Assembly: GCA_913060645.1 (NCBI GenBank)
Contig: CAJXSW010000023.1
Coordinates: 1 to 32,107, forward strand
Length of the DNA stretch: 32,107 nt
Direction: 5' to 3'
Source: an uncultured Dokdonia sp.
GTDB taxonomy: Bacteria; Bacteroidota; Bacteroidia; Flavobacteriales; Flavobacteriaceae
In this document: positions 9,046 through 24,568 of the stretch, one piece after another
Layout: the number at the start of each line of letters is the position of its first letter
How positions within the stretch are numbered: the first letter of the stretch is position 1
Notes under the pieces: generated by a model
Database searches by the model: none
What the model was told of the DNA's origin: nothing
What the model saw: the letters and a program-made list of their open reading frames with translations, nothing else
Made by a program: the position numbers and the translations under genes

Positions 9046-9098
9046 TAAATAATTTATGGTCATCAAATCTACGTAAAAAGAGTAGAGATGGTTTTGAA

Positions 9099-9899
9099 TT
9101 ACTGCTTATTTAATTCCCAGTTATATTCTTTAAACGTAACAGTCGCATCTCCTGCAACTTCTACCGTGCTGTATTTATTTACGTAAGGGATTAAGCTTTC
9201 ATTAGATCCTCTATAAAAATCTTTTGTATAAAACTTGAAAATAGAAGATAGCTCTACTTTATTTGCTGTGATAGTATTCTTATCGCTGTTTATGAACTCC
9301 TTTGTTGCTCTCTCTAATTGCTCATTAATTTTTCCAGCAGTATATGCTTCTCTCAATAGCGGTGGGCATGAAATAGAAGCACAGTTTATAGCAAAGTGTA
9401 TTCTAGGTTCGTTCATCTTGCGTAGTACGCCATTCTCAATTCCTCCTAGAGATAGCTTACGGTTTTGCACAGTTACAATTCCTTTAGTCCATACACCGTC
9501 TATTTCTTTTATGCTTGTAACATTAGGATTTTTAAGGATTTGATCTACAGTATACGCATTGTAAATATTGATGTAATAAGCCAGCAATTCTTGAACGCTC
9601 CAGTCATTATTAGGATCTAGACTCGCAAGTTTATCTAAGTATGCATTAAGGGCTTCTTGATCTTTAGCAAATCCTTTATAATCTACCATTCCTTTTGAAT
9701 CTACATGCTTTTTAAGAAGCTCGTCCCACGCAGAGTGATCTACATTTACAGTAGAGTTTGCAGTCGTTGAGGTTAGTGTTCCTTCTACTTGCTTAGTAGG
9801 CTGTCCTTGACTTGTAATTCCACCTGCAGCTAGTGTAGCGCAACTTTGCAGCGTGATTGCAAAGGCACCTATGGTAAGTAATCGTAAGAAGTTTTTCAT
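9099..9899 (-). CDS. DUF547 domain lipoprotein (copy B)
   Basis: A 266-residue lipoprotein. The signal peptide ends in the lipobox LQSC with Cys20 as lipidation site. A low-complexity Thr/Ser/Val linker runs to about residue 55, and a DUF547 domain fills the rest. The domain shows the family hallmark INCASISCPPL with two conserved cysteines, an upstream AYYINIYNAYTVD block and a Phe-Tyr rich C-terminus. DUF547 has no established activity that I can assign. The conserved His/Asn/Cys residues look catalytic-like. It is a paralogue of the next upstream gene (9991-10890) and lies within the arsenosugar region between that gene and the GT2. Confidence 0.85.
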   Translation of the reverse strand: MKNFLRLLTIGAFAITLQSCATLAAGGITSQGQPTKQVEGTLTSTTANSTVNVDHSAWDELLKKHVDSKGMVDYKGFAKDQEALNAYLDKLASLDPNNDWSVQELLAYYINIYNAYTVDQILKNPNVTSIKEIDGVWTKGIVTVQNRKLSLGGIENGVLRKMNEPRIHFAINCASISCPPLLREAYTAGKINEQLERATKEFINSDKNTITANKVELSSIFKFYTKDFYRGSNESLIPYVNKYSTVEVAGDATVTFKEYNWELNKQ

Positions 9900-9926
9900 A
9901 ATATATCTTATTGAGAGTACAATATC

Positions 9927-9940
9927 GCTTTTGCGAAAGC
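9927..9940. repeat. Degenerate iterated palindrome copy
   Basis: GCTTTTGCGAAAGC differs from the exact core GCTTTCGCGAAAGC by one base (T for C at position 6). It lies between the two DUF547 genes. It may be a decayed or tolerated variant. Confidence 0.6.
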
Positions 9941-9990
9941 AAAATCAACACCCATTAACGTGTAGTTAAGTGAGTTTTGTGAAAACATTA

Positions 9991-10890
9991 CTACTTATTC
10001 AATGTCCAGTCATAATCACGATAACGCACCCTTGCATTCTCTGAAATTGAGGTCGTGGAATAACGATTTAAGAAATCTATAAGAGAGCCGTCTGTTTTAA
10101 AGTCTTTTGAAAACCATGTGAAAATCTTTGAAACTTCGACGCGATCACTTGTGATAGTATTGCGGGTAGGATCATTAATAAATTTTCGAGAAAGCATATC
10201 TAGTTGTGCATCTACCTTGCTAGGTGTAAAGGCTTCATTAAGCAACGGCGGGCAAGAAAAAGAAGCGCAGTTTATCCCAAAGTGTATACGAGCATCTCCC
10301 ATTTTACGTAAAATCTCATGCTCAATCTCATTGAGATTATACCACTTGTCTCCTAATTTCCAAAACCGTTGATCCCATGGATCTTTAATATCTTTTATGC
10401 TTTCAAGTGGATAGTTGCGTAGTATAAGGTCTATTGTCATCGCATTGTACGTATTCATCCAGTAGGATAGTTTCTCTTCTTGCGACCAAGTAGCAGTAGG
10501 CAGCGATTGCCCTAGGGAAGCGATATATGCACGTAAACTACCCCAGTTAGATTTAATACCACTGTAGTTTACATTACCTTCTGTAGAAACGTATTTCTTT
10601 AAAAGTGCATCAAAAGCGTCATGATTAAAATTGGAAACTTCTTCTATAATCTCAACTTCAACAACCTCTTCGAGTTCATTATTTGAGACGGTAACTTCAA
10701 CGACTTCCTCAGGTTTAGAGATCGTTGTTTCTACTTCTTCTGTTTTAGTAATTACCGTTTGTGGTATTTCAACGCGGGTTTCGGTAATATCCATTGGAGT
10801 CTCAGATTCGGGAGTAGTTGTAACATTTTTAGAACTGCTACAGCTAGTGAGAAGTGCAATTGTAAGTATGAAGTAAGCTAATTTTTGCAT
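9991..10890 (-). CDS. DUF547 domain lipoprotein (copy A)
   Basis: A 299-residue lipoprotein. The start at ATG 10888-10890 gives a clean signal peptide MQKLAYFILTIALLTSC with C17 as the lipid site. An in-frame ATG at 10935 would put a basic extension in front of the signal and overlap a palindrome copy, so it is rejected. A Val/Glu-rich linker (about 25-95, for example EVVEVEIIEEV) precedes a DUF547 domain with the motif INCASFSCPPL. It is clearly related to the following gene (9099-9899), with the same order of linker, YWMNTYNAMTID block and Cys motif. The duplication and the acidic linker suggest a periplasmic or surface role. Function is unknown. Confidence 0.85.
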   Translation of the reverse strand: MQKLAYFILTIALLTSCSSSKNVTTTPESETPMDITETRVEIPQTVITKTEEVETTISKPEEVVEVTVSNNELEEVVEVEIIEEVSNFNHDAFDALLKKYVSTEGNVNYSGIKSNWGSLRAYIASLGQSLPTATWSQEEKLSYWMNTYNAMTIDLILRNYPLESIKDIKDPWDQRFWKLGDKWYNLNEIEHEILRKMGDARIHFGINCASFSCPPLLNEAFTPSKVDAQLDMLSRKFINDPTRNTITSDRVEVSKIFTWFSKDFKTDGSLIDFLNRYSTTSISENARVRYRDYDWTLNK

Positions 10891-10912
10891 CAGATTTTTT
10901 CTAAGATTAGTT

Positions 10913-10928
10913 CGCTTTCGCGAAAGCG
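10913..10928. repeat. Iterated palindrome copy 2
   Basis: CGCTTTCGCGAAAGCG is a perfect 16-bp palindrome beginning 11 bases downstream of the stop codon of the sterol-desaturase-family gene (minus strand) and upstream of the DUF547 gene. Confidence 0.92.
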
Positions 10929-10939
10929 TATGCAATAAC

Positions 10940-11830
10940 CTACTTTTCTTTTTCAGAAAGAGGGTAGGTGATTTGACCTACAAAGTCCGTTGGAAATGTT
11001 TCATCTCCGTCAAACCCTAATTCGATATCACGGCCATCATGCGGAACATGACTTGTTCCAAAAAGGTAATCCCATACACTCAACGTTAGTCCGAAGTTTA
11101 CGCCATACTTTACACGTTCAGGTAATTCTTTTGCGTGATGCCAGATGTGCATCTTAGGGTTATTGAGAATATACTTAAGCGGGCCATAATCCCAGCCTAT
11201 GTTTGCATGGTTGAGGTGACCTACCGTAAGTGCGGTAAAGTGTATGATAGCCACATATGCAAGGTCAAAACCACCTATAATCGCAATAGGAATGTATAAA
11301 AAGGACTTGTACATAATGGGCTCTACCCAGTGATAGCGCATCTGTGCTGCAAAAGCCATCTCCTTTGTGGAGTGATGTACTTTGTGAAAATTCCATAAAA
11401 ATGGTACTCTGTGTAGTATTCTGTGCGTGTTCCACTGCACAAAGTCAGATATGATAAAGAAGATAAGCAACCCTACACCAAAGGGTAGTGTGTCTACATC
11501 AAAAAGTTGGAAGTCACTTAATGCTAAGCCTACCACGCCTAGAATATCATCAAAAAACAGTGCTGCGGTATTTGTGAGTGCGATAAATACAATGAGATTG
11601 AGGAAGAAGAAATTAAAGAACATGTAAAATAAGTCCATCCAGAAGTCTTCACGGAAAATCTTCTGATTCTTACGCCACGGAAATACAATTTCTAACCCCC
11701 ACACTACAAGAGACACAATGATCAATCCCCAGAAATAATTATCCCAGTTATTCTCAAAGAAAATCTCACGCTTAAAATAACTCCAATAGTCGGAGTAAGA
11801 TTGTAAGAAAGTATCTAAGTATTTGCGCAT
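10940..11830 (-). CDS. Sterol desaturase/fatty acid hydroxylase superfamily membrane protein
   Basis: A 296-residue integral membrane di-iron enzyme candidate. Several hydrophobic segments occupy about residues 33-50, 64-88, 117-130 and 172-200. The histidine motifs of the superfamily are present: H136-x3-H140, H149-x2-H152-H153 (FHKVHH), H205-x2-H208 and H228-x2-H231-H232 (MHIWHH). Family members hydroxylate, desaturate or cleave lipid substrates with O2. It sits 130 bases after arsM, separated by a strong hairpin, and is followed by the DUF547 pair. A lipid-modifying role linked to arsenolipids is a tempting inference from location only. It could equally act on unrelated lipids. Confidence 0.85.
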   Translation of the reverse strand: MRKYLDTFLQSYSDYWSYFKREIFFENNWDNYFWGLIIVSLVVWGLEIVFPWRKNQKIFREDFWMDLFYMFFNFFFLNLIVFIALTNTAALFFDDILGVVGLALSDFQLFDVDTLPFGVGLLIFFIISDFVQWNTHRILHRVPFLWNFHKVHHSTKEMAFAAQMRYHWVEPIMYKSFLYIPIAIIGGFDLAYVAIIHFTALTVGHLNHANIGWDYGPLKYILNNPKMHIWHHAKELPERVKYGVNFGLTLSVWDYLFGTSHVPHDGRDIELGFDGDETFPTDFVGQITYPLSEKEK

Positions 11831-11960: not shown

Positions 11961-12929
11961 TTAACAACATCCACCACCATCATAGTGATACGTAGACTCA
12001 CTTATAAAGATGTCATCACGACCTAAAGCAGCAAGTGCTCCTGCTGTCTTATCACAAATAGCCAGCGGCTGATTTTTAAGAAGTATGTGTCCTAGCTTAT
12101 CATCAAAAAAGTCTTCTTCTCCATAATAAATGGCAGCTTTACCTGTAAAAATACAAGGTCCGTCTGCTGGCATAGGATCTTTAATTGCTGCTACTTCAAT
12201 AGACTCAATGTAAATGAGCTCATCCGTAGGGTAGGCTCCAGGATTAAGTATTCTATATGGCTTACGAGCTCTTATCTCAATAGTTCCAAAACCAGCATCT
12301 GTAAGTGCTTTTACATACTCGGCTATGGGTAAACTCCCAGAAAGACAAAGCGCGCGTAAACGATCATCATTTCGCAACTCTTCATTCATTTCCTGCTCAC
12401 AAGTAGGGTCGCTCATTACAAGTTTACCGTGAGGTTTAAGCACGCGATACATCTCTGCAATGGCGCGTTTTAAATCTTCGGCTTTAAAGATGTTGAAGAG
12501 GCAGTTTTGTGCAGCTACGTCTATAGAGTTATCTGCTACATTGAGGTTGAGGGCATCTCCTTTTTGAAGATCTACAAATTCGCTCTTAAACCAAGGGTTT
12601 AACTTCTCTGCTTCTATAAAGTTTTTGCGAGACGCTTCTAGCATTTCATCCACTACATCTACACCTACTACGCCACCTTTATTACGATTAAAGTATGCAA
12701 ACTGTAATAGCTCCATACCACCACCTACACCTACATATAGCATCTTAGGCTCATTAGTAAGATCACGAGCATTTACAGTGCTTCCGCAACCGTAATTCAT
12801 CTCTTGCATAATCTTTGGGATCTTTAATCCAGGTAATTCCCAAATAGGATTTGTAGTACAGCACAGTCCTACATCTGGTGTAAGTGCCGCTTCTTTATAA
12901 AGATCATTTGTAGCATTAAGGTAACTCAT
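11961..12929 (-). CDS. arsM: Arsenosugar-type arsenite S-adenosylmethionine methyltransferase ArsM
   Basis: A 322-residue class I SAM-dependent methyltransferase that should methylate As(III) to mono- and dimethylarsenicals in the cytoplasm. The SAM motif YVGVGGGMELLQFAYF (65-80) and acidic D91/D94 are clear. The cysteines expected to bind arsenic are present: C143 in AQNCLFN and C195 in LCLSGSLP, matching the NC and C-GG-L positions of other ArsM proteins, plus C48 in NYGCGST. Extra cysteines are the vicinal C23/C24 near the N-terminus and a terminal C321/C322 (GGGCC). The sequence corresponds to the longer ArsM subtype found beside arsS. It lies 81 bases after the phosphorylase gene, with a palindrome between, and ends at a strong hairpin. 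Confidence 0.92.
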   Translation of the reverse strand: MSYLNATNDLYKEAALTPDVGLCCTTNPIWELPGLKIPKIMQEMNYGCGSTVNARDLTNEPKMLYVGVGGGMELLQFAYFNRNKGGVVGVDVVDEMLEASRKNFIEAEKLNPWFKSEFVDLQKGDALNLNVADNSIDVAAQNCLFNIFKAEDLKRAIAEMYRVLKPHGKLVMSDPTCEQEMNEELRNDDRLRALCLSGSLPIAEYVKALTDAGFGTIEIRARKPYRILNPGAYPTDELIYIESIEVAAIKDPMPADGPCIFTGKAAIYYGEEDFFDDKLGHILLKNQPLAICDKTAGALAALGRDDIFISESTYHYDGGGCC

Positions 12930-13010: not shown

Positions 13011-13823
13011 TTATAAAGATTTAATCAACCCAGTAAAGAGTGTGATCATCTCTGGCTCTGCCTTACCAGCCATTGCAATTATTTCTGGAATATTTACAGG
13101 TTTGAGGTTATCTGGATCACACTCATCTGTAAGAACAGAAACTGCTACTACGGGTAGATTTAAATGATTTGCCACGATAATTTCTGGCACAGTACTCATT
13201 CCTACAGCATCTGCTCCTATAATTCTTAAGTAGCGATACTCTGCTCTAGTTTCTAGCTGTGGGCCTACTACAGATGCATATACTCCTTCGTGTAAGTTTA
13301 TGCCATTGTCTTTTGCAATAGTGCGTAGCGTGTTGTTCATTACAGTGTCATAAGGTGCGCTCATATCTACAAAACGTTCTCCCATTTTCTCTACACCTTT
13401 GAAAGCAAGCGGAGATCCTCCTTGAAGATTAATGTGATCATCTATGAGCATTAACTCTCCTTTTTTGAAATCAAGGTTAATCGCTCCAGAAGCATTAGAT
13501 ACTAATAGGTGCTTGATGCCTAAAGCGTGCATCACACGTACTGGGTAGGTTACATCTGTAAGTGAGTAGCCTTCATACACGTGAAAACGGCCTTGCATGA
13601 TAATAACCTTTTTACCTTCTAGCGTACCGTAGATTAATTTACCTGTGTGGAACTCTACCGTTGCCGTTGGGAAATTAGGGATATGATTATAACTCGCAGT
13701 GTGTTCTATCTCAACACGATCAATAAGCTGCCCAAGGCCAGTACCTAAAATGATACCAACTTCAGGTTTCTCAAATCCTTTACCTTTTAAATATTCTGCT
13801 GTTTCTATGATGTATTTTTCCAT
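13011..13823 (-). CDS. punA: Purine nucleoside phosphorylase (trimeric PNP-I type)
   Basis: A 270-residue PNP of the trimeric mammalian/PunA type, which splits purine nucleosides with phosphate into base and pentose 1-phosphate. Visible motifs are the phosphate loop ILGTGLGQL (about 25-33), MQGRFHVYEGY with H81, VSNASGAIN (about 108-115), VVGPQLETRAEY with E191, and the base-site region VGMSTVPEIIVANH with M209. The base-recognition segment reads LTDECDP (232-237). The gene sits inside the arsenosugar cluster between the TIGR04282 gene (33-base gap) and arsM. That context suggests it removes adenine from the 5'-deoxy-5'-dimethylarsinoyl-adenosine made by ArsS, giving an arsenoribose 1-phosphate. 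General purine salvage is the alternative. Confidence 0.92.
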   Translation of the reverse strand: MEKYIIETAEYLKGKGFEKPEVGIILGTGLGQLIDRVEIEHTASYNHIPNFPTATVEFHTGKLIYGTLEGKKVIIMQGRFHVYEGYSLTDVTYPVRVMHALGIKHLLVSNASGAINLDFKKGELMLIDDHINLQGGSPLAFKGVEKMGERFVDMSAPYDTVMNNTLRTIAKDNGINLHEGVYASVVGPQLETRAEYRYLRIIGADAVGMSTVPEIIVANHLNLPVVAVSVLTDECDPDNLKPVNIPEIIAMAGKAEPEMITLFTGLIKSL

Positions 13824-13856: not shown

Positions 13857-14459
13857 TTATTGTAAATACTGAGCAAACTCAGCATATGGCTTTAAATCTT
13901 CGGCAAAGTCTATATCGTTAAGCGTTTCTAGTTGGTGTGTTTTTAACGTTGCTAGATTATCCATAGTGCTTTTAAATACGGTATCTCCGCCCCATTCTTT
14001 ATTGTAAAATACTTCTTTTACAAGCTTGTTCATTCCCAATAAATAATAACCTCCATCTTGCGCTGGACCTATCACTGCATCGTTAGAGTGTAGCGCGTCA
14101 AAAGCTTCATTTATGTGAGAAGCACGCAAGTCAAAAAGGTCACTACCTACAATGAGTACATTGTCATACCCATCAGTAAACGCTTGATCGAAGGCATTGT
14201 GCATACGTACACCTAGATCTTCACCTTCTTGCTGGAATTTTTCAAAAATGGCATTATCCCACATATCATCTGGGCGCACTTGCACAGAGTAGCCTACGCG
14301 TTTTGTGCAGTTTAAAATTGCAACTACGTCTTTAGTATGCGAGAGTAATTTCTTGTAAATCTCAAGAGCGTTTTCTTGACCTACGCCTTTTGCAAGCCTG
14401 CTTTTTACTTTGCCTAGCTCTGGATTCCTGGTGAATATAAGTAGTAGGTTGTTGGTCAT
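13857..14459 (-). CDS. TIGR04282-type arsenosugar biosynthesis glycosyltransferase-like protein (DUF2064)
   Basis: A 200-residue Rossmann-like nucleotidyl/glycosyltransferase of the CofC-like DUF2064 family. It opens with LLLIFTRNPELGKVKSRLA, the diagnostic TIGR04282 N-terminus, followed by a metal-site region VLIVGSDLFDL (the usual GSDxPxL with Pro changed) and GPAQDGGYYLLGM. The family is named for its place in arsenosugar loci. Proposed roles are activation or transfer of a sugar or aglycone, and the exact reaction is not established here. The start overlaps the stop of the upstream small membrane gene as ATGA (14456-14459), implying translational coupling. A second DUF2064 gene lies at 22347-22952. 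Confidence 0.88.
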   Translation of the reverse strand: MTNNLLLIFTRNPELGKVKSRLAKGVGQENALEIYKKLLSHTKDVVAILNCTKRVGYSVQVRPDDMWDNAIFEKFQQEGEDLGVRMHNAFDQAFTDGYDNVLIVGSDLFDLRASHINEAFDALHSNDAVIGPAQDGGYYLLGMNKLVKEVFYNKEWGGDTVFKSTMDNLATLKTHQLETLNDIDFAEDLKPYAEFAQYLQ

Positions 14460-14829: not shown

Positions 14830-15324
14830 CTAGTAAACTTTATGTCCTGTTTTTAAATACTTTCCCCATATTTTGGAAAATACGTGAACAGAGTCGGTTG
14901 GTTGTTTTTTCTTGTTTTGAATTTCGTAGCCTTCATCTTTCCAAGCAAATATGCTTCCGTATAGATTTTTGACATTTGTAAACCCTTTCTTCTTCAGTCG
15001 CTCGCCAAAGTCTTCAGAGCGTATCCCTACGGAGCAATAAACGACGATGGGTTGATCTTTTTTTGCTTTCGCGAAAGCGTACATACTATCATTCACCTTC
15101 TCAGAAACCCACACCGCTCCAGGGATATGACTCACGTCAAACTCTTCCTTTTTACGAGTGTCTAAAATTAAATAGTCACTCATTTCCATCTTGAGTTCTT
15201 GCACAGAAATATAAGGAACAGAGCGTGTGTTGTACTGTTTTAAAAGCACATCCATATCCGACTGTCCAAATGAAACTGCCGAAACCAATAGAAGTAATAT
15301 GTAAGCGATATTCTTAGTGTTCAC
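14830..15324 (-). CDS. Exported rhodanese-like sulfurtransferase
   Basis: A 164-residue single-domain rhodanese with signal peptide MNTKNIAYILLLLVSAVSFGQ. The domain shows LILDTRKKEEFDVSHIPGAVWV and the active-site loop VVYCSVGIRSE with the persulfide Cys, followed by NLYGSIFAWKDEGY. Rhodaneses move sulfane sulfur between thiols or other acceptors, and this one should work in the periplasm. A palindrome copy (15065-15078) lies in the gene and encodes AFAKA. The gap to the metallophosphoesterase gene is 3 bases. In this locus it might supply sulfur for thio-arsenicals, which is inference only. Confidence 0.85.
   Translation of the reverse strand: MNTKNIAYILLLLVSAVSFGQSDMDVLLKQYNTRSVPYISVQELKMEMSDYLILDTRKKEEFDVSHIPGAVWVSEKVNDSMYAFAKAKKDQPIVVYCSVGIRSEDFGERLKKKGFTNVKNLYGSIFAWKDEGYEIQNKKKQPTDSVHVFSKIWGKYLKTGHKVY
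15065..15078. repeat. Iterated palindrome copy 4 (inside rhodanese gene)
   Basis: GCTTTCGCGAAAGC is a perfect 14-bp core. It is read on the minus strand as Ala-Phe-Ala-Lys-Ala in the rhodanese coding sequence. Confidence 0.9.
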
Positions 15325-15327
15325 GTC

Positions 15328-16155
15328 TTATAGTTTTATGCCAAATCCTTGTAAGCCACTCTCTACAGGTGGTAGTATTTCTGTGTTGTCCCAGATTCCA
15401 GTTACGATGGTACGTGCATATTCTTCTGGTAGTAAGCCGTTTTGCATTAACTGGCTCGTGAGCTTGTAATTATATGCAAAGGTATGGTGTTCATAGCTAA
15501 GATTGTCAGAAGTATCATCTAGAATGGCATACCAGACTTCGGTAGAGCCGTCATTTGCTGGCATCCCTATCACGCCAGGGTTGAGCCAGAGTTTATCTTC
15601 TTGCTCCGTATGAAAAGGTAAGCCGCAATGTCCCGCAATGATCACATCACTTTGGGTTGTATCAAAATTTGAGCCTTTTATTTCCCAAGGCGTAGATTTA
15701 AATATGAATTCAGAAATATGATTATATGAGCCGTGTACAACCGAAACCTTTTTACCAGCGTAGGTAAATGTAATATGGTCTGGAAGCGCCTCTAATGTCT
15801 CTAGCGAATTCTTAGAGAGTTTGCTTTGTGCGTATGGATACCACAGCTGGCTAAAACCATCACAACGCGATCCTTCTCTAAAATCGCAACCGCAATCTTC
15901 TGCGCCCTCACTCAGTTGTTTTTCTACATTACCGGCGATACCGTGTGTTCCCCATATTTTATAGAGTTGTACGGTTTCTTCAGGCTGCGCACAATAACCC
16001 ACGATATCTCCTGTGCAGATGCAATTTTCTGGAGCAATCCCTTGTTGCTCTGCAATAGATTTTAGTTTCTCAAGCGCTTGTAGGTTGCTATACACACCGC
16101 CATACAGCAATACTTTGCCAGTGAGCTTGCCTATGTTTTTTATCTTTTTATCCAT
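15328..16155 (-). CDS. Metallophosphoesterase-family protein with degenerate metal site
   Basis: A 275-residue calcineurin-like phosphoesterase fold of the YfcE/single-domain type. Motifs in order: motif I reads GGVYSN (19-24) in place of DxHGN; motif II TGDIVGY (D50); motif III AGNVE (N76); motif IV VHGS (H141); motif V GHCG (H176), where GHTH is usual. Ligands for one metal (motif I Asp and His, second His of motif V) are missing, while those of the other metal remain. The protein has seven cysteines, mostly clustered (C45, C47, C55, C88, C90, C98, C177), which is unusual. It overlaps the upstream symporter by 16 bases. It may dephosphorylate an arsenosugar intermediate, act with one metal, or have become a binding protein. 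Confidence 0.82.
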   Translation of the reverse strand: MDKKIKNIGKLTGKVLLYGGVYSNLQALEKLKSIAEQQGIAPENCICTGDIVGYCAQPEETVQLYKIWGTHGIAGNVEKQLSEGAEDCGCDFREGSRCDGFSQLWYPYAQSKLSKNSLETLEALPDHITFTYAGKKVSVVHGSYNHISEFIFKSTPWEIKGSNFDTTQSDVIIAGHCGLPFHTEQEDKLWLNPGVIGMPANDGSTEVWYAILDDTSDNLSYEHHTFAYNYKLTSQLMQNGLLPEEYARTIVTGIWDNTEILPPVESGLQGFGIKL

Positions 16156-17474
16156 CGTGGTATGAGGTATAATATGGTACAGGCTGTGATGCCCCAGACG
16201 TTTGTCCAGAGTAACGCAGCATAAGATCCTGTTGTAAATTGTAATGATAGTGGTAAGGCATCAAAAACTAATATGAAGCCAAAAATGATACCAGTTACTA
16301 CACTCAAGTAATAGCTGATTTTTGGGGCTGGCTTTCGCCAAAATAAAAATACTGGTGTTAGTCCAATTACCATCGTTCCAGATATGGTCGTGGCGCTTAA
16401 AATCTCTGCATTAAGAAATACGGGAATAGTTCCCAATATGGCAATCACAGCCATAGATAATCTCCCAAACGAAAGATTTTTACCCAAATTTAAATCGACT
16501 GAAAGTAATTTTGAAAATGACGAGAATGTGCTGTCCAGCGTAGATGCCGCCGAGGTAATCATAATAAAGTTGATGACTAGTAATATGACTACGCCAAAAG
16601 CTTTACCCACTTCTACAGCGGCTTGACCTGCCATTCCTTGTGACTGGGCATACACACCTATTACACTAAATAAGATAATGCAAGCTGCTCCCAATACCGA
16701 GGCGATTAGAAAGCTACGTAGGGTAACCTTCGGCGAACTTAAAAAAGCTCTATCTGTTAATACAGGATCGTGAAAGGGATATGAGAATGACTGTAACAAG
16801 GCTGCAAATAGCAAATTAAGACCGAGATCAAAACTCCACGTTCCAGAGGTCGCAACCTCCTTCACACTAAAATCATCTACCGAAAATATGCTCCATAAAA
16901 TCACACATAGCAATATGGAGAATAGTCCCATCTGTATCACATCTGTAAATATAGAACTGCTCAATCCGCCCTTGAGCGCATAAGCCAGAGTGAGTATCGT
17001 AAAGACCAGAATCGCCCAATAATAAGGAGTGCTTCCCATTTCTCCAAAATAAGAACCTATCACCATAGTGTTACTCCACACCTCATTAAAAAGCCTAATG
17101 GCAATGAGCACAGAAAATAAGCGCATCGCTCCTTTTCCAAAGCGAGAAGTTAGAAACTGATGTATACTTGTAAACCCACCTTGCAAACGCATCTGGTAGA
17201 TAATCACACCAGCCACAGCAAAGGAGAGGTAGTAACCCGCATAAGCCACACCACCCACAATCCCAAAACTCAGACCTAAGTTGGCAGCATTTGTAATACT
17301 CTTTGCAAAAATCCACGATATAATGAGACTACCCGTAAGCATCCATACATTAGGAGACTTCTTACGATGCGTAGCCTTAAAAAACTCATCAGGACTTTTG
17401 GCAAGCGGAGACAGCACAAACATCAACACACTCGATGCTATAATTAATCCCCATTGCCAGATTTCTACATTCAT
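16140..17474 (-). CDS. Sodium:solute symporter family transporter (SSS/SLC5)
   Basis: A 444-residue polytopic membrane protein with about 12-13 hydrophobic helices. The family traits are the N-terminal block SPDEFFKATHRKKSPNVWML followed by a helix, FTSIHQFLTSRFG, ALKGGLSSSIFTDVIQMGLF (a core SSS signature), and TSAASTLDSTFSSFSKLL near the Na+ site. It should couple Na+ entry to uptake of a small solute. Start ATG 17472-17474 gives MNVEIWQWG. An in-frame ATG at 17504 lies in a hairpin region. The gene follows susD and overlaps the metallophosphoesterase gene. Substrate is unknown; uptake of whatever SusCD brings across the outer membrane is a reasonable inference. Confidence 0.87.
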   Translation of the reverse strand: MNVEIWQWGLIIASSVLMFVLSPLAKSPDEFFKATHRKKSPNVWMLTGSLIISWIFAKSITNAANLGLSFGIVGGVAYAGYYLSFAVAGVIIYQMRLQGGFTSIHQFLTSRFGKGAMRLFSVLIAIRLFNEVWSNTMVIGSYFGEMGSTPYYWAILVFTILTLAYALKGGLSSSIFTDVIQMGLFSILLCVILWSIFSVDDFSVKEVATSGTWSFDLGLNLLFAALLQSFSYPFHDPVLTDRAFLSSPKVTLRSFLIASVLGAACIILFSVIGVYAQSQGMAGQAAVEVGKAFGVVILLVINFIMITSAASTLDSTFSSFSKLLSVDLNLGKNLSFGRLSMAVIAILGTIPVFLNAEILSATTISGTMVIGLTPVFLFWRKPAPKISYYLSVVTGIIFGFILVFDALPLSLQFTTGSYAALLWTNVWGITACTILYLIPRWIKR

Positions 17475-17501
17475 ATATTGGTTTCTTATTCTAATCGTTA
17501 T

Positions 17502-17521
17502 CACTTTCCGTTAGGAAAGTG
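17502..17521. other. Hairpin in leader of symporter gene
   Basis: CACTTTCC (17502-17509) and GGAAAGTG (17514-17521) form a perfect 8-bp stem with a GTTA loop, 27 bases upstream of the symporter start. It has no T tract on the minus strand, so mRNA processing or an operator is more likely than termination. Confidence 0.5.
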
Positions 17522-17590: not shown

Positions 17591-19030
17591 TTAATCTACA
17601 TCCCACCACACGCGCACATTAAGACTATTGCCGTCTGTGGCATCAAATGCTGTCTGGTAATTATCTGCATTGAGCGCTTCTTCTTCAGATGGGTAAGGCA
17701 TACGTACGGGAATTAAACCGTCGTTGAGACTTGCTTGCACATCCATAAACGCAGGAAACCCGGTGCGTCTATATTCTATCCAACCTTCATAACCGTTTAT
17801 GATGTTTGCAATCCATTTTTGAGTAACAATTTGTTCTAGTGGCGAACTATCTGCGTTATTAAAAGCAGCATTTCCTGTTAGATAATCTACTGGTAATGGT
17901 GTTTGCCAGTATTCAAAAGCTAGGGTCACACCGTTTTCGTAAAGTGCCTGCGCATCTCCAGAGATGAGTCCGCGCTGGGCAGCTTCGGCTAGAGCTAGCG
18001 AAGTTTCCCAAGCGGTCATAAAGTTGGCATCTAGTACAGAGGTATCTTCTCTAAAGGCAGTGCCTGCAAGTGATAAATCTCCTAGCACGGCAGCCGTTGA
18101 GGTTGCATCTATACCATTTATAAGTCCGTTAAATTCGTCAGTATTTGATGCTGGTCTAAAAAACGTATTAAGTCTAGTGTCTTCAAGGTCTACAAGAATG
18201 GTTTCCATCGTTTCTGAGAGCACAAAATTGTTAAAGTCGCCCACACGCAACTGTGCAAGTCTAAAACTATTAGGCTCCGCATTGCTAAAGTTAAAAACAG
18301 CATTATCACTATTACTAGTTATAAAGTTATCCTCATTAACCAGCGCTTGTAAATCTGCACTTACATCTACACGATCTGAGATACGTAAAAGATGTTTGAT
18401 TTTAAGACTGTTTGCAAAGCGTACCCAAGCTTGTAAATCACCACCATAAAGAATATCTCCCTCTAGCGGGATCACATCTTCATAAGACTCAATAGCAGCA
18501 ATTCCCGCATCTAGATTTGCTAGAATACCATCTGCTCCAGTATATATAGCCTCCTGCGTATCATAAGCTGGTGTTACCGTTCCATCTATTCCATTAAATG
18601 CCTCTGAGTAAGGAACATCGCCAAAAAGATCTGTAAGTCCAGCCGCCATATAAGACTTGAGGATAAGAGCAGGACCTTCATACACAGCAAAGGTCACATT
18701 AGTTTGCGCCTGCTGTAAGATAATCTCATTGTCTCTTAAATTCGTATAAAAAATAGGCCAAGGATTTCCACCTAGCTGCGGTGATTTTAAGGCGTGACGA
18801 TCAAAAAGATTAAAGTCAAGAGCCGTTCTGTGCTGCGAGAGTAAATCTCCAGCCACAAAACCTTCATAACTCATTTGCTCTCCGTAGTCATAAATAACTT
18901 GTCGCAACAACAAGCTAGGTTGCACGCTTACGGGATCATTTGGGTTGGTGTTTATTTCTTCAAAATCTTCTGTGCAACTGCTCATTCCAAGTAAAAGCAG
19001 GAGCGAAGTGATGTATAAAAAATGTTTCAT
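17591..19030 (-). CDS. SusD/RagB-like surface lipoprotein (SusD-like_2 type)
   Basis: A 479-residue lipoprotein that partners the SusC-like receiver encoded immediately upstream (34-base gap). The signal peptide ends MSSC with C19 lipidated, followed by TEDFEEINTNPNDP. The acidic stretch after Cys fits a surface lipoprotein export signal, and EINTNPN is typical of the family. The middle has the TPR-like helices of SusD proteins (LADLFGDVPYSEAF, WVRFANSLKIKHLLRIS), and the C-terminal region includes IVTQKWIANIINGYEGWIEYRRTG-like text characteristic of SusD-like_2. The ligand cannot be read from sequence. Position inside the arsenosugar cluster suggests a nucleoside-, sugar- or arsenical-type ligand. 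Confidence 0.92.
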   Translation of the reverse strand: MKHFLYITSLLLLLGMSSCTEDFEEINTNPNDPVSVQPSLLLRQVIYDYGEQMSYEGFVAGDLLSQHRTALDFNLFDRHALKSPQLGGNPWPIFYTNLRDNEIILQQAQTNVTFAVYEGPALILKSYMAAGLTDLFGDVPYSEAFNGIDGTVTPAYDTQEAIYTGADGILANLDAGIAAIESYEDVIPLEGDILYGGDLQAWVRFANSLKIKHLLRISDRVDVSADLQALVNEDNFITSNSDNAVFNFSNAEPNSFRLAQLRVGDFNNFVLSETMETILVDLEDTRLNTFFRPASNTDEFNGLINGIDATSTAAVLGDLSLAGTAFREDTSVLDANFMTAWETSLALAEAAQRGLISGDAQALYENGVTLAFEYWQTPLPVDYLTGNAAFNNADSSPLEQIVTQKWIANIINGYEGWIEYRRTGFPAFMDVQASLNDGLIPVRMPYPSEEEALNADNYQTAFDATDGNSLNVRVWWDVD

Positions 19031-19047: not shown

Positions 19048-19065
19048 ACGCTTTCGCGAAAGCGT
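19048..19065. repeat. Iterated palindrome copy 5
   Basis: ACGCTTTCGCGAAAGCGT is a perfect 18-bp palindrome directly abutting the susC stop codon (19065-19067) in the short susC-susD gap. Confidence 0.92.
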
Positions 19066-22000
19066 TAAAAGTTAAATCCTGCCTTAAATCCGAAGCTTCT
19101 TGTTGTAGCATAGCTCAAATCTTCTACACCGCTCACAAATCCTTGTCCTTGTACTGCAAGTTGTTCAGGGTCAAAATGTGGGTTTTCTGTGATGGCAAAA
19201 AGATTGCGCCCTATAAGTGAAAGGTTTACATCTACACCTTCTTTAAGACCGATAAATCCGTCTTTAAGCTTGAAAGAATATCCTATAGAAAACTGACGAA
19301 GTTTTAAGAACGAGGCGTCATAAATGTTGTTTTCTTCGTGGTTACGGTCATAAAACTGGCGGTAGTAACTCTCTGCCGAAACTGCTGTGGTGTTTGGAAC
19401 AAAATTTGGATTTGCCGCAGTACCTGTGTTTACAACTCCTTGTGCTATAATTCCCTCTTCTGGGCGGAAAGCAGTTTCTGCTAGTTGGCCTCCTACATTA
19501 CCTAGCGCTCGCGTTCTTGAGACAATATCTCCACCTTGACGCCAGTCAAATAAGAAAGAAGCACTCCACTGCTTGTAGCGGAAATCATTGTTCCACCCTA
19601 GATTAAAATCTGCTGTGTAGTTTCCTATTTTCTTGAGGTTGTTGTCTGCAATAAAGCGACCGTTATTATCAATGATAAAATCGCCATCGTCATTACGTAG
19701 GTAGCCTGTTCCATAAATATCGCCAACTTCCCCGCCCTCTTCTACTTGGAAAAATACGGTTTGGTTTGCGCTGTCATAAATACGGCTAAAGGCAAGCGTA
19801 AGACGACCATCAGATTGTGGTAAACTTTCAACTACGGACTTGTTGGTGCTGAAGTTAAAGGTTGTGTTCCATCTAAAGTTTTCATTTACGATAGGAGTGA
19901 TGCCTGCAATGACCTCGATACCCGAAGTGCGCACCTCACCACCATTTACCACCTGCTGATTAAAGCCTGAAGAAATAGCAATAGGCAAGGAGATAATCTG
20001 ATCTTTGGTAAGGGCGTTGTAGTACGTGAAGTCTACATTAAACCTGTCTTTAAAGAAGCGTATATCCGTACCTATCTCGTACGAGGTAGTTTGCTCTGGT
20101 TTTAGGTTTGCATTAGGGATAAAGTTTTGTGCGCTAAAAGTGGGCTGCCCTTCAAAAGGAGTCTGTGCGATAAATGCTCCAGAAGTTTGGAAAGGATTGG
20201 TGTCATTACCCACCTGAGCAACACTTGCTCTTAATTGCAAGTAGCTTATTGCCTCTGGAAGTTCCCAAACGTTAGATCCTATAAAACTCAAACTAGCCGA
20301 AGGATAGAAAAACGAAGTGTTATCTGCACTAAATGGCGTTGCCAGCGCACTTGACCAGTCATTACGTCCTGTAACATCTAGGTATAAGAAATTCTTGTAA
20401 CCCAGTTTTGCCACTCCGTAAAATGAGTTGATACGCTTTTCAGATTCAAATTGGAATGCTTCTATAGGTGATGCGGCATTATTAAGGTTAAAAATACCTG
20501 GTTGTGCAAGGTTTGTAGCTTGCACCTGTTTTGTAGAAGCTACTTGTGATAAGCGGTTACCTCCAAGACTTACATCTAGCGAGAAATCGCCAAACTTGTT
20601 ATCATAGTTAAGTAAGAAGTCTGTATTGATCTCACGATAAAAAACATCGTGCTCTGCATAGCCACCATTTTGAAAACGATTGGAACTAAAGTTCCTTAAA
20701 AACTGTCGTTTCTCACTACTGTAGTCCATCCCTGTGCGTATGGTAAGGTCAAGATTTTTGGCGAGTGTCTGTGTAAGGGCAATGTTTCCAAAAACGCGAT
20801 CACGGTTAAAAGAGTTTCTGTTTTCTTGTAAAATAAAAAACGGATTATCAAAGAAGGTGTAGTTAAAAGAGTACTGCTGCACGCCTTCTAGACCTGGCTG
20901 CCAGTAATCACGTAGGCTGTCTATATTAAGAGAGCGAGGCCCCCAGGCTACGAGTGAGTAATTTACATTCTCACTTCCGTATCCGTTTGATGGGCGGTTA
21001 TCACTACCAGAATTTACATAACTAATGCTCGCCTTAATTTTAGTTTTGTCTGTTGGCTTAAAGTTGAGTTTTGTTGCGATAGTCTGTCTATCTAAGTTTA
21101 CACCAGGGATGATAGACTCACTACGTAGATCTGTAAACGATATACGGAAATCACCTTTGTCAAATCCGCTAGAGACAGATACGTTATTTATGGTGGTTAC
21201 ACCAGTTTCATAAAAGTCTTTTAGGTTATCTGGGTTCGACCTAAATTCAGTAGGAGTGATGGCAAGTCCATTGTATAAAGCTGTATCTCCACCACGTACA
21301 ATCGTTCCATCTGCAAGTGTCACCGGACTATCAAACTGCGGAATTAAATTTCCAGCATCTAGTCTCGGTCCCCAAGAATAGGTGATGTTATCTGAGATTC
21401 CTGCTCCGAGGCCATCTACATATTCAAAAACACCGCCTTGTCCTTGTCCGTACTCGTTTTGAAAATCTGGAAGTTGGAAAGCACTGTCAAAAAAGATAGA
21501 AGAGTTAATGCTTATACCCAATCCTTTTTTCTTGCTACCATCTTTTGTTTCAATAACAATTACTCCATTTGATGCACGTGTACCGTATAGTGCGGCAGCA
21601 CTTGGACCTTTAAGTACAGAAACAGAAGCAATGTCATCTGGATTTACTTCCATCGCGCCGTTTCCAAAATCTACTTCTTGAAAACCTGCGGCTGCCTCAT
21701 TTGTAAAGTTGAAAACGGTGTTGTTATTTATAGGTACTCCATCTACCACAAACAGCGGATTGTTATTAGAAAACGAAGCTTCTCCACGTATGCTTATGCG
21801 CGATGAAGATCCTACTCCTGTTGCGCCTTGCGTGACGGTGACACCAGCAAGCTTACCAGAAAGGTTATCCAGAAAGTTTACAGACTTTACCTCGTCTATA
21901 TCTTTTGCATTAATTGTTTGTACTGTATATCCTAGTTCTCTTGTGTTGCGTTTTACGCCCAGCGCAGTAACTACAATCTCATTTAATCCCTCAAAGGAAT

Positions 22001-22280
22001 TTTCTAGAGCGATATTGATTTTCGTTTGCGAAGAAACTACAACTGACTGTGTAGTAAATCCTAAAGCAGAAAACTTCAGTCTGTCGTTTGGTGATGTTGT
22101 AGTGATGGTGTAAAAACCATTTTCGTCTGTAATAGTTCCTTGGGTTGTGCCATCTAAAATGACATTTACAAATGGTATTGTGGTGTTATCTTCTGCGCTT
22201 GTAACGGTTCCGGTAACGGTAGTTTGAGCATACAAACTTGCTGTAAAAAGCAAGAGCATACTAAGATAAAATGATTTCAT
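19065..22280 (-). CDS. SusC/RagA family TonB-linked outer membrane transporter
   Basis: A 1071-residue TonB-dependent transporter. After signal peptide MKSFYLSMLLLFTASLYAQ comes a carboxypeptidase-D-like regulatory domain (about 21-95, VTGTVTSAEDNTTIPFVNV). The SusC hallmark NEIVVTALGVKRNTRELGY, the plug domain (about 115-250, with FVVDGVPINNN and LKGPSAAALYGTRASNGVI) and a 22-strand barrel ending in FKAGFNF follow. It imports substrates captured by the SusD-like partner encoded next. The gap to the upstream DUF2064 gene is about 66 bases and contains a weak hairpin. No glycoside hydrolases are nearby, so this is not a classic polysaccharide utilisation locus. The arsenosugar context points to another ligand. 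Confidence 0.95.
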   Translation of the reverse strand: MKSFYLSMLLLFTASLYAQTTVTGTVTSAEDNTTIPFVNVILDGTTQGTITDENGFYTITTTSPNDRLKFSALGFTTQSVVVSSQTKINIALENSFEGLNEIVVTALGVKRNTRELGYTVQTINAKDIDEVKSVNFLDNLSGKLAGVTVTQGATGVGSSSRISIRGEASFSNNNPLFVVDGVPINNNTVFNFTNEAAAGFQEVDFGNGAMEVNPDDIASVSVLKGPSAAALYGTRASNGVIVIETKDGSKKKGLGISINSSIFFDSAFQLPDFQNEYGQGQGGVFEYVDGLGAGISDNITYSWGPRLDAGNLIPQFDSPVTLADGTIVRGGDTALYNGLAITPTEFRSNPDNLKDFYETGVTTINNVSVSSGFDKGDFRISFTDLRSESIIPGVNLDRQTIATKLNFKPTDKTKIKASISYVNSGSDNRPSNGYGSENVNYSLVAWGPRSLNIDSLRDYWQPGLEGVQQYSFNYTFFDNPFFILQENRNSFNRDRVFGNIALTQTLAKNLDLTIRTGMDYSSEKRQFLRNFSSNRFQNGGYAEHDVFYREINTDFLLNYDNKFGDFSLDVSLGGNRLSQVASTKQVQATNLAQPGIFNLNNAASPIEAFQFESEKRINSFYGVAKLGYKNFLYLDVTGRNDWSSALATPFSADNTSFFYPSASLSFIGSNVWELPEAISYLQLRASVAQVGNDTNPFQTSGAFIAQTPFEGQPTFSAQNFIPNANLKPEQTTSYEIGTDIRFFKDRFNVDFTYYNALTKDQIISLPIAISSGFNQQVVNGGEVRTSGIEVIAGITPIVNENFRWNTTFNFSTNKSVVESLPQSDGRLTLAFSRIYDSANQTVFFQVEEGGEVGDIYGTGYLRNDDGDFIIDNNGRFIADNNLKKIGNYTADFNLGWNNDFRYKQWSASFLFDWRQGGDIVSRTRALGNVGGQLAETAFRPEEGIIAQGVVNTGTAANPNFVPNTTAVSAESYYRQFYDRNHEENNIYDASFLKLRQFSIGYSFKLKDGFIGLKEGVDVNLSLIGRNLFAITENPHFDPEQLAVQGQGFVSGVEDLSYATTRSFGFKAGFNF

Positions 22281-22346: not shown

Positions 22347-22952
22347 TTAAATACTAACTAATGATGGTGATCCTTTATTAAAGTGGCTTTTAGTGAGCGA
22401 CTCAAAGAATCGGTTTGTATTGTGATAACTAAGAGAAAGACCTTGATTGACTATGTTTTGTATAAGTTGTAATAGTCTTTTTGATAATGTGGTAGTCTCT
22501 TTGAGCATCTGCTGTAAATCTGCAAATGTGTCAAGATCTGAGAGCGTCTCAAGTAGGTAAAGGTTTGGACGCTTTCGCGAAAGCGTATCAGAAATAATAG
22601 CACCCAGTTTACTAGATTGCCACGGTAGGTTTTTAAATTGCTCAGGCTTAAAATGTTTCTTTTTAATCCCCATTAAATAGCAACCGCCATCAGTACTTGG
22701 GCCAATAACAAGCGCAGACTGTTTGAGCTTTTCTTGTGCTAAAAGTATATGCCCCGCCGAAAGGTGCGGAGTGTCATTACCTATGGTTATAACTTGGTCA
22801 TAACCACTGTCAAAAACTGCTGTCAGCGCATTTGTAAAACGCTCGCCAAAGGTGTTTCCTACCTGCTCATTTTCAGAAAAAATAACATAGGGGATTCCTG
22901 TCTTGCGTGCCGTAGTAATAGTTTGCCTATTGAGCTCTTTAAATAAAGCCAT
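22347..22952 (-). CDS. DUF2064/TIGR04282-like protein, start codon unclear
   Basis: A paralogue of the 13857-14459 gene with the same core: QVITIGNDTPHLSAGHI (equivalent to GSDxPxL) and GPSTDGGCYLMGI. The only ATG (22950-22952) would remove the first beta-strand. The frame stays open upstream to a TAG at 23037-23039 and there encodes KTAILIFAQTATTEASCKKL, which looks like the expected family N-terminus. No ATG, GTG or TTG exists in that stretch. A non-standard start such as ATC at 23031-23033, or a base error, is likely, so the real gene probably reaches about 23033. About 50 extra residues extend past the fold at the C-terminus. It follows arsS almost without a gap and carries a palindrome copy encoding TLSRKR. 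Confidence 0.72.
   Translation of the reverse strand: MALFKELNRQTITTARKTGIPYVIFSENEQVGNTFGERFTNALTAVFDSGYDQVITIGNDTPHLSAGHILLAQEKLKQSALVIGPSTDGGCYLMGIKKKHFKPEQFKNLPWQSSKLGAIISDTLSRKRPNLYLLETLSDLDTFADLQQMLKETTTLSKRLLQLIQNIVNQGLSLSYHNTNRFFESLTKSHFNKGSPSLVSI
22570..22585. repeat. Iterated palindrome copy 6 (inside DUF2064 gene)
   Basis: CGCTTTCGCGAAAGCG, within an 18-bp perfect form (22569-22586), is read on the minus strand as Thr-Leu-Ser-Arg-Lys-Arg. Confidence 0.92.
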
Positions 22953-23043: not shown

Positions 23044-24099
23044 TTAAGCAACGGTTCCTTGACAACTACTTCCTGCGCCTGCAGTACAACCATAACAGTG
23101 CTGAGAGATCATAATGTTACGATCATTAAGTAAATCTTCATTATAATCTTTAATGTGTTTTACACTACTCGCCACTGGCAATTCTAGCATTTGATTAAAA
23201 TCACAATCAAATAAATAACCATCCCAACTTATTGAAATTGTGTTTTTACACATCACATTCTCTACTGCGGCAGGGTTATATGCCTCTACGAGTTGATACA
23301 TATAATCCTCATAGTTTTCTGATGCGATGAGGTAATCTAAAAATCGTGCTATGGGTAAGTTTGTGATTGCAAAAAGGTTGTGAAATTGGATATTAAAATC
23401 TTCCATCAATCCTTTTTTAAAGTCTTTCTCCATGCTTGCTTGGTCTCCCGGTAAGAAAGCTCCAGATGGATTGTAAACTAGGTCAAGTCTTAAGTCACTG
23501 CCTGGCATACCATACCCGCGCTCATTAAGTTCTTGAAGTGCCTTTATAGATTTATCAAAAACACCATCACCACGTTGTTTGTCTGTCTTTCCGCGAGTCC
23601 AGTGGGGCATAGATGAGATGACGTGTACGTTGTGTTTTTTAAAGAAATCTGGAAGATCGTAATACTTTTTATTTGCACGTATAATGGTGAGGTTAGAACG
23701 CACAATAAAGTCTTTAATCCCAGCCTTACTTGCCTCTTCTACAAAACGTCTAAAATGCGGATTCATCTCTGGTGCACCACCAGTAAGATCTAGCGTGTGA
23801 GCTCCTGTGTTGCGTATCACTTCTAGACATTGCTCCATAGTCTCCCAAGTCATAATCTCCTTGCGATCTGGACCAGCATCTACGTGACAGTGATCACACA
23901 CTTGGTTGCACATGTACCCCACGTTAATTTGGAGTATTTCTAGCTTATTAGGGCGTAACGGTAGCTGATTAGTCTCCTTTATTTTCTTAGCAAACGTAGG
24001 TAGTTCATCTTTGAAAATACCATTAGATAAAATTTCTATCTGCTTATTTGCTTGTGCGAGTTCGCTACCTTCTTTCTTCAGTGATTTTGTTGCTGACAT
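23044..24099 (-). CDS. arsS: Arsenosugar biosynthesis radical SAM enzyme ArsS
   Basis: A 351-residue radical SAM enzyme. The 4Fe-4S motif is C64-x3-C68-x2-C71 (CNQVCDHCHVDAG), the SAM-contact motif LTGGAPEMNP is at about 105-114, and the Cys-rich C-terminal domain carries C284, C299, C335, C338 and C346 (HCYGCTAGAGSSC). This architecture is that of ArsS, which transfers a 5'-deoxyadenosyl radical to dimethylarsenite to form the C-As bond of 5'-deoxy-5'-dimethylarsinoyl-adenosine, the arsenosugar precursor. The pairing of ArsM with ArsS in one locus is the strongest evidence for the pathway. It is preceded by the AhpD-like gene, with 79 bases and one palindrome between, and followed closely by a DUF2064 gene. 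Confidence 0.95.
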   Translation of the reverse strand: MSATKSLKKEGSELAQANKQIEILSNGIFKDELPTFAKKIKETNQLPLRPNKLEILQINVGYMCNQVCDHCHVDAGPDRKEIMTWETMEQCLEVIRNTGAHTLDLTGGAPEMNPHFRRFVEEASKAGIKDFIVRSNLTIIRANKKYYDLPDFFKKHNVHVISSMPHWTRGKTDKQRGDGVFDKSIKALQELNERGYGMPGSDLRLDLVYNPSGAFLPGDQASMEKDFKKGLMEDFNIQFHNLFAITNLPIARFLDYLIASENYEDYMYQLVEAYNPAAVENVMCKNTISISWDGYLFDCDFNQMLELPVASSVKHIKDYNEDLLNDRNIMISQHCYGCTAGAGSSCQGTVA

Positions 24100-24178: not shown

Positions 24179-24514
24179 CTACCCGTCTAGTTTATTTACT
24201 TTATTCATCATCATTACGCCGTGTACCAGCGTCGCACCACTTTTTATAGCGGCACCTACGTGCACAGCCTCCATCATCTCTTCCTTAGTGATTCCTTTCT
24301 GTAGGCCGTCTTTAGTATATGCATCTATACAATATGGGCACTGCTCTGTGTGGGCAACGGCAAGTGCGATGAGCGATTTCTCACGCGCAGTGAGTGCTCC
24401 CTCTTCAAAAACTTTACCGTAATAGTCAAAAAACTTAGTTCCTAACTCTTCACTCCACTCCGTGATTTTTCCGAATTTTCTTAAATCTTTTGGGTCGTAA
24501 TATTGATCTGCCAT
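24179..24514 (-). CDS. Arsenosugar-associated AhpD/carboxymuconolactone decarboxylase-like protein
   Basis: A 111-residue alpha-helical protein of the AhpD-like/CMD fold. The CxxC pair is C59 and C62 in HTEQCPYCIDAYTKDG. The residue three after the second Cys is Tyr66, where AhpD has a catalytic His. The segments LTAREKSLIALAVAH and EEMMEAVHVGAAIKSGATLVH match the small CMD-type subfamily found beside arsS. A thiol redox or peroxidase-like role protecting or reducing pathway intermediates is the usual suggestion and is not proven. Start ATG 24512-24514 (MADQYYDPKDL) fits family length. An in-frame ATG at 24568 would add 18 unlikely residues and run through the promoter. It is the first gene of the minus-strand locus. 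Confidence 0.88.
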   Translation of the reverse strand: MADQYYDPKDLRKFGKITEWSEELGTKFFDYYGKVFEEGALTAREKSLIALAVAHTEQCPYCIDAYTKDGLQKGITKEEMMEAVHVGAAIKSGATLVHGVMMMNKVNKLDG

Positions 24515-24537
24515 AATAAAATTGTTGTGTAAACACA

Positions 24538-24568
24538 CGAATATACCTTTAATCGTAACCACTCCCAA
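24538..24568 (-). promoter_or_regulatory. Putative promoter of the arsenosugar locus
   Basis: On the minus strand TTG (24566-24568) is followed after 20 bases by TATATTCG (24538-24545), one mismatch from the Bacteroidetes TAnnTTTG -7 element. It would give a leader of about 17-20 bases before the AhpD-like start. A TGTGT-AA-ACACA inverted repeat (24526-24537) lies at the predicted transcription start and could be an operator. Confidence 0.45.

Follow-up and report, generated by a model that had tools for sequence, protein, structure and literature searches.

What does a protein do that has a metallophosphoesterase fold, has lost most of one metal site, and carries conserved cysteines within an arsenic locus? 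The question is raised by a 275-residue protein encoded in a 32,107-nucleotide stretch of DNA (the window) from an uncultured Dokdonia sp. (Table 1). Our results suggest, with a confidence a little above even, that it is a one-metal thiol reductase, derived from the Car1 type of arsenate reductase, that acts on an imported pentavalent arsenical and is re-reduced by an AhpD-like partner. Arsenical reduction, rather than phosphate cleavage, is probable because a metal site has been lost, the cysteines of an arsenate reductase have been kept, and uptake and arsenosugar genes adjoin. Thiol-based redox chemistry on an arsenical fits better than a phosphatase or an arsenical binder.

Table 1. Features of the locus, with positions in the window
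Feature	Positions	Strand	Remarks
arsM, arsenosugar-type arsenite methyltransferase	11961..12929	minus	NF038099, 559.2 vs cut-off 400
Purine nucleoside phosphorylase	13011..13823	minus	
TIGR04282 arsenosugar-associated glycosyltransferase (DUF2064)	13857..14459	minus	
Rhodanese-domain protein, next downstream gene	14830..15324	minus	NF045521
Protein of 275 aa with metallophosphoesterase fold and CxCx7C loop, metal site 1 lost	15328..16155	minus	ATG start
GHCG, residues 175-178	15622..15633	minus	replaces GHxH
CGC-x7-C, residues 88-98	15862..15894	minus	C88, C90, C98
GGVYSN, residues 19-24	16084..16101	minus	replaces D-x-H motif I
Sodium/solute-symporter-like transporter	16140..17504	minus	overlaps gene of 275-aa protein by 16 bases
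susD-like gene	17591..19030	minus	name by sequence and position
susC-like (TonB-dependent) gene	19065..22280	minus	name by sequence and position
Partial TIGR04282-like protein	22347..22952	minus	97 bits vs cut-off 134; profile 71-189
arsS, radical SAM arsenosugar enzyme	23044..24099	minus	TIGR04167, 437.6 bits vs cut-off 300
AhpD-like protein with CPYC	24179..24568	minus	TIGR04169

The protein matches the PF12850 profile at 42.8 bits (gathering score, 27) and reaches only 25.7 bits against the YfcE family TIGR00040 (cut-off, 56.25). A preliminary description of this DNA had named it a metallophosphoesterase, an identity upheld by the PF12850 score and by fold matches to solved structures. The letters and numbering given there (GGVYSN, GHCG, D50, N76, H141, H176, and seven cysteines with two CxC pairs) were also right. 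The cysteines lie at positions 45, 47, 55, 88, 90, 98, and 177, with CxC at 45 and 88. Compared with a canonical two-metal enzyme, the protein has the metal 2 ligands (Asp, Asn, His, His), and D-x-H and GHxH are absent. It had been said that all ligands of one metal were gone; this is true of only three of the four metal 1 ligands, because D50, the residue that bridges both metals in the superfamily, remains. The position of the motif III histidine is occupied by V77, a loss that is not specific, since the same position is already Tyr in three of seven canonical relatives. A paralogue was sought in the source genome (89% complete) up to E 10, and the search returned the gene itself alone.

The losses and the cysteines might have been peculiar to this sequence. 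Among 199 genomes of the same family as the source, 37 gave matches at E 1e-10; 30 of these, the source included, are at least 57% identical, and 7 are distant at less than 30%. GG-x-YSN, D50, N76, H141, H176, G178, C45, C55, C88, C90, and C98 are invariant in the 30 close members, with Cys at position 47 in 26 and at position 177 in 28. In all seven distant canonical relatives from this sample, the metal 1 positions that correspond to G20, Y22, and G178 are occupied by D, H, and H. A phylum-wide sample of 395 genomes yielded nine matches at E 1e-25, counting the source; five lie outside the family and show 50 to 58% identity. A wider genome scan at E 1e-3 found 569 stretches encoding a relative, and the best 80 of the 569 were used, all titled as flavobacteria; the closest match among these 80 was from an uncultured Dokdonia (98%). 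The conservation alignment comprised 120 rows, which minus 12 duplicates left 108 distinct homologues, one of them from Roseomonas. Across all 108, 41 of 275 columns are invariant, including G20, Y22, D50, N76, H141, H176, G178, C88, C90, and C98. These three are the only invariant cysteines; C55 is present in 107 homologues (Gly replaces it in Roseomonas), C177 in 103, C45 in 100, and C47 in 99. The motif III position holds V, I, or C, never His. Private mutation or decay is thus ruled out, since the changes are common to every distinct homologue. The alignment with homologues that the preliminary description proposed does not refute it, as the metal-site loss (108 of 108) and the cysteines (C88, C90, and C98, 108 of 108) are family traits. 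The spread of the family beyond Bacteroidota rests on one plasmid, that of Roseomonas; a plasmid search at E 1e-12 for more homologues of this kind returned the query itself only, and 38 pattern matches on viral contigs included no relative.

These patterns bear on the two functions first suggested for the protein, a one-metal phosphatase or an arsenical-binding protein. A one-metal phosphoesterase, acting for example on a phosphorylated arsenosugar, would make use of the fold and of the one complete metal site. However, not one of the 108 homologues has D-x-H, the motif III His, or the last His, and the conserved cysteines would be left unexplained; this option fits poorly, and we consider it the least probable of those weighed here. 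The binder keeps a share of the probability, and the predicted structure is relevant to it. An AlphaFold2 model (81 rows) has a mean pLDDT of 89.6 and a pTM of 0.90, and in this otherwise confident model residues 91 to 97, within the CxCx7C loop, fall below a pLDDT of 50, as would be expected of a mobile loop. The best matches among solved structures are 3rqz (Foldseek E 4.4e-15) and 3qfm (VIA Z 26.7, rmsd 2.6, 245 aligned). The protein shares its overall fold with these YfcE-like or SapH-like phosphodiesterases (3rqz, 3qfm, 1nnw) but is only ~20-27% identical to them in these alignments, and the superfamily motifs D-x-H and GHxH are missing from it. A non-catalytic binder, in which As(III) or methylated As(III) would be held by the three thiols of C88, C90, and C98 and then passed to ArsM or ArsS, is the main rival to a reductase: three invariant cysteines within one flexible loop, the arsenic locus, and the loss of hydrolytic residues would all suit it. 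We nevertheless judge it unlikely, as the four metal 2 ligands, needless for a pure thiol binder, are invariant in 108 of 108 homologues, the CxC is kin to that of a reported reductase, and the protein is in places fused to a CxxC redox-type domain.

The origin of the cysteines was traced through plasmid records. A protein search returned 29 records, of which the best was Roseomonas at 37% identity and the other 28 stood at 23-28%. Eight of those 28 neighbourhoods were opened (Paraclostridium, Pedobacter, Adhaeribacter, two Hymenobacter, Rubrobacter, Pontibacter, and Mucilaginibacter), and in all eight the homologue was surrounded by arsR, ACR3/arsB, arsC, arsM, or arsH genes. The ten metallophosphoesterases encoded there all have D-x-H and GHxH. 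A CxC that lines up with C88/C90 is present in eight of them, at 74/76 or 75/77; the two that lack it are the second copies in the tandem pairs of Pedobacter and Mucilaginibacter. When nine further relatives are included, all 19 ars-type rows have D-x-H and GHxH and 15 have CxC at this aligned position, the 4 rows without it counting against a reductase. The neighbourhoods of six of these nine were searched (L198-L200 were left out), and they held an arsR-like gene in six cases and ACR3 in four. As a control, CxC was found in 0 of the 30 top-scoring PF12850 proteins of the class, 4 of the 30 being poor extractions without D-x-H.

Passages of PMC12124457 describe a Paraclostridium ars-operon metallophosphoesterase (Orf1) as ~40% identical to Car1 of Rufibacter tibetensis (Shen et al. 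2024), a metallophosphoesterase-type arsenate reductase, and state that Cys74 and Cys76, essential to the activity of Car1, are present in the Paraclostridium protein. The location of C88/C90 at the position of this reported essential pair, the invariance of C88, C90, and C98, and the absence of CxC from the 30 ordinary PF12850 proteins argue for a reductase. Because C88-G-C90 aligns with CGC at 74/76 of the ars-operon metallophosphoesterases, the CxC was probably inherited, with the metal-site loss and C98 as new features. Gain of C88/C90 along with the metal loss is ruled out, since relatives that keep every ligand share both. Hence the earlier phrase "gained cysteines" applies in part: C88/C90, and mostly C47, are common to relatives with all metal ligands, whereas C98 and C55, joined in most members by C45 and C177, are new alongside the metal-site loss.

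A tree of 43 rows placed 20 members of the family on one branch (100/100) with a stem of 3.07 changes per column. A 96/91 split separated the family and the ars-type rows from three other metallophosphoesterases, with an outgroup of 4 rows. The Paraclostridium protein was nearest to the family (93/87), a placement made with a long stem and a thin outgroup; one "other" row (L201) fell among the ars-type rows, and 16 of 40 inner branches were unsupported. Given the very long stem and the thin outgroup, it is likely rather than proved that the family arose from an ars-type ancestor with CxC and then changed greatly. That grouping with ars-type proteins, tentative as it is, and the ars genes around the homologue in all eight opened neighbourhoods are further points for a reductase.

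The protein resembles the Car1 type, as compared via the ars-operon homologues and not the Car1 sequence, in its metallophosphoesterase fold, its arsenic gene context, and a CxC at the 74/76 position. It differs in its low identity to the plasmid ars-operon homologues, in the absence of the metal 1 ligands, in two additional cysteines (C98 and C55) and a C-terminal tail that contains WDN, and in its locus, which is susC-susD-symporter-arsS as opposed to an arsR-ACR3 operon. Car1 reportedly keeps both metals and is coupled to thioredoxin; as both metals are kept, its mechanism is not transferable as it stands. MrMe1 and MrMe2 of Mucilaginibacter ars operons, called uncharacterised in passages of PMC10652896, are also metallophosphoesterases encoded among arsenic genes. 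Unlike the protein described here, the tandem pair of M. robiniae retains D-x-H and GHxH in both members, and CxC occurs in the first alone.

The placement of the gene in an arsenic locus by the preliminary description was borne out, with arsS, the arsenosugar-type arsM, TIGR04282, TIGR04283, TIGR04169, and the purine nucleoside phosphorylase all above cut-offs within ~16 kb. No match to ArsR or ACR3 was found among the scanned proteins of the window. The partial TIGR04282-like protein covers the second half of its profile alone and lies upstream of susC in most loci. The symporter frame opens with GTG; as homologue alignments begin at about residue 6-14, translation more likely starts from the ATG found at residue 11 (17474).

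Some neighbours accompany the gene closely. In the family loci the symporter is present in 29 of 29 and susC with susD in 26 of 29. The best 80 of the 569 loci have the symporter in 80, arsS in 77, the AhpD-like gene in 75, susD in 73, and susC in 72, several loci ending at contig edges. Other families of the class supplied seven loci, all of which hold susC, susD, the symporter, and the gene, with arsS within reach in two. Of the 199 family genomes, 30 have a symporter orthologue (E 1e-120), and these are exactly the ones with the gene (Fisher p 3e-36, kinship uncorrected). Of 118 loci, 97 have the start of the gene overlapping the stop of the symporter, and in 82 the overlap is 16 bases long; for this count, starts were set by alignment and some genomes entered twice. 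arsS is found in 148 of the 199 genomes, comprising all 30 with the gene versus 118 of 169 without it (p 7e-5), and in 9 of 9 further gene-bearing genomes, two of which (G672 and G580) were chosen for arsS. A general step of arsenosugar synthesis is ruled out, as most arsS genomes (118 of 148 in the family sample and 28 of 31 in the class sample) have no close homologue.

It could be argued from the exact co-occurrence and the usual overlap, together with the loss of canonical catalytic residues, that the protein serves the symporter as a subunit for coupling or regulation, with a dead phosphoesterase fold put to use in binding. We think this improbable, more so than the binder: the second metal site and the cysteines are invariant, the Roseomonas homologue follows an unrelated ABC transporter, and the fusions seen join an AhpD-like domain, not the transporter. 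One open frame joins the gene and this domain in 4 of 30 family members (L039, L045, L046, and L047) and also in L156, one of the seven loci from other families. CPYC is present in all four family fusions, each of which is the only TIGR04169 match of its genome. These fusions, the exact symporter co-occurrence with its frequent overlap, and the presence of arsS in 30 of 30 gene-bearing genomes favor a reductase.

TIGR04169 occurs in 147 of the 199 genomes and in 29 of the 30 with the gene. The exception, G002, counts against a reductase and indicates that the AhpD-like partner is not indispensable. Across the sample TIGR04169 follows arsS almost one to one (147 versus 148 of 199 genomes, the difference being G002), and it hence looks like a core arsenosugar component. 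The rhodanese, purine nucleoside phosphorylase, DUF547, fatty-acid-hydroxylase, and GT2 genes are missing from several gene-bearing loci, some of which reach contig ends, and this patchy presence weakens the case for a reductase.

The place of the symporter is taken in Roseomonas by an ABC transporter, with PhnE and a binding protein of the PhnD type, which precedes the gene and overlaps it by 4 bases. The cluster contains TIGR04282, DUF547, and two radical SAM genes, both below the ArsS cut-off. Differing transporters beside one enzyme suggest that the enzyme handles an imported compound; the substitution of a PhnDE-type transporter and the mobile look of the CxCx7C loop are consistent with a reductase, while the Gly in place of C55 is against it. 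This plasmid cluster (L145:3877-16932) also has two FAD-dependent oxidoreductases and a TIGR04283-like gene, and may possibly represent a different organoarsenic pathway.

The reaction scheme that we infer for a reductase would run as follows. Derived from the ars-operon Car1 type, the protein would have retained the redox CxC (C88, C90) and, of the two metal sites, the one made by D50, N76, H141, and H176, while the ligands belonging to the other metal alone were lost. Two cysteines would have been added, C98 as an invariant third and C55 as a fourth that is nearly so. SusC/SusD and the symporter would work in the direction of import and bring in a pentavalent arsenical, which would bind beside the single metal. 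One CxC cysteine would attack the arsenic, and the other would then release the trivalent product and form a disulfide, which C98, perhaps with C55, may relay outward. Re-reduction of this disulfide would fall to the AhpD-like protein with CPYC, which some genomes encode in one chain with the enzyme, and the trivalent product would feed ArsM or ArsS.

ArsI, a C-As lyase, offers an analogy for a metal held by two His and one Asp. By that analogy, the protein might instead use its one metal to cleave the C-As bond of organoarsenicals that have been imported, the thiols holding the arsenic. The retention of D50, N76, H141, and H176 plus thiols and the adjoining of uptake and arsenic genes are compatible with such cleavage, but the relative of reported function reduces arsenate, and we regard the idea as very unlikely. 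A broader proposal, a one-metal three-cysteine enzyme for imported organoarsenicals that reduces pentavalent methyl- or sugar-arsenicals or even breaks the C-As bond, and so lets marine bacteria acquire arsenosugars or methylarsenicals and channel them into arsenosugar metabolism, is tentative and to our minds rather doubtful.

In the titles and abstract openings of the literature searched, we found no organoarsenical reductase on a metallophosphoesterase fold and no SusC/SusD-symporter route for arsenicals. Among the papers searched, none was found that joins "arsenosugar" with "metallophosphoesterase". The review PMC6205960 does not mention phosphatase, phosphoesterase, arsenosugar, calcineurin, or radical SAM; the sole such protein mentioned in PMC6775490 is of the unrelated YmdB type; and a figure legend in PMC6620896 marks "MPE" in ars clusters. 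Passages of PMC8787705 cite work on a methyltransferase providing DMA.

If a reductase is the true reading, the family would be a second step in the change of function of this fold, from a two-metal phosphoesterase to a CxC arsenate reductase and then to a CxCx7C protein that has one metal and is linked with an operon for uptake. The label "metallophosphoesterase", carried by the record of the Roseomonas homologue, would then point to the wrong chemistry for the family. If organoarsenicals are reduced, a redox step would be supplied for arsenosugar metabolism, and common marine flavobacteria would import arsenicals.

Two further observations concern neighbouring genes. Beside arsM, positions 8335-11830 (minus strand) encode a TIGR04283 glycosyltransferase, two DUF547 proteins, and a fatty-acid-hydroxylase-family protein, which might make a lipid-linked arsenical. 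Tandem metallophosphoesterase genes occur in ars operons at L161:6028-7539 and L167:4998-6490; the presence of CxC in the first copy and its absence from the second suggest a division of labour.
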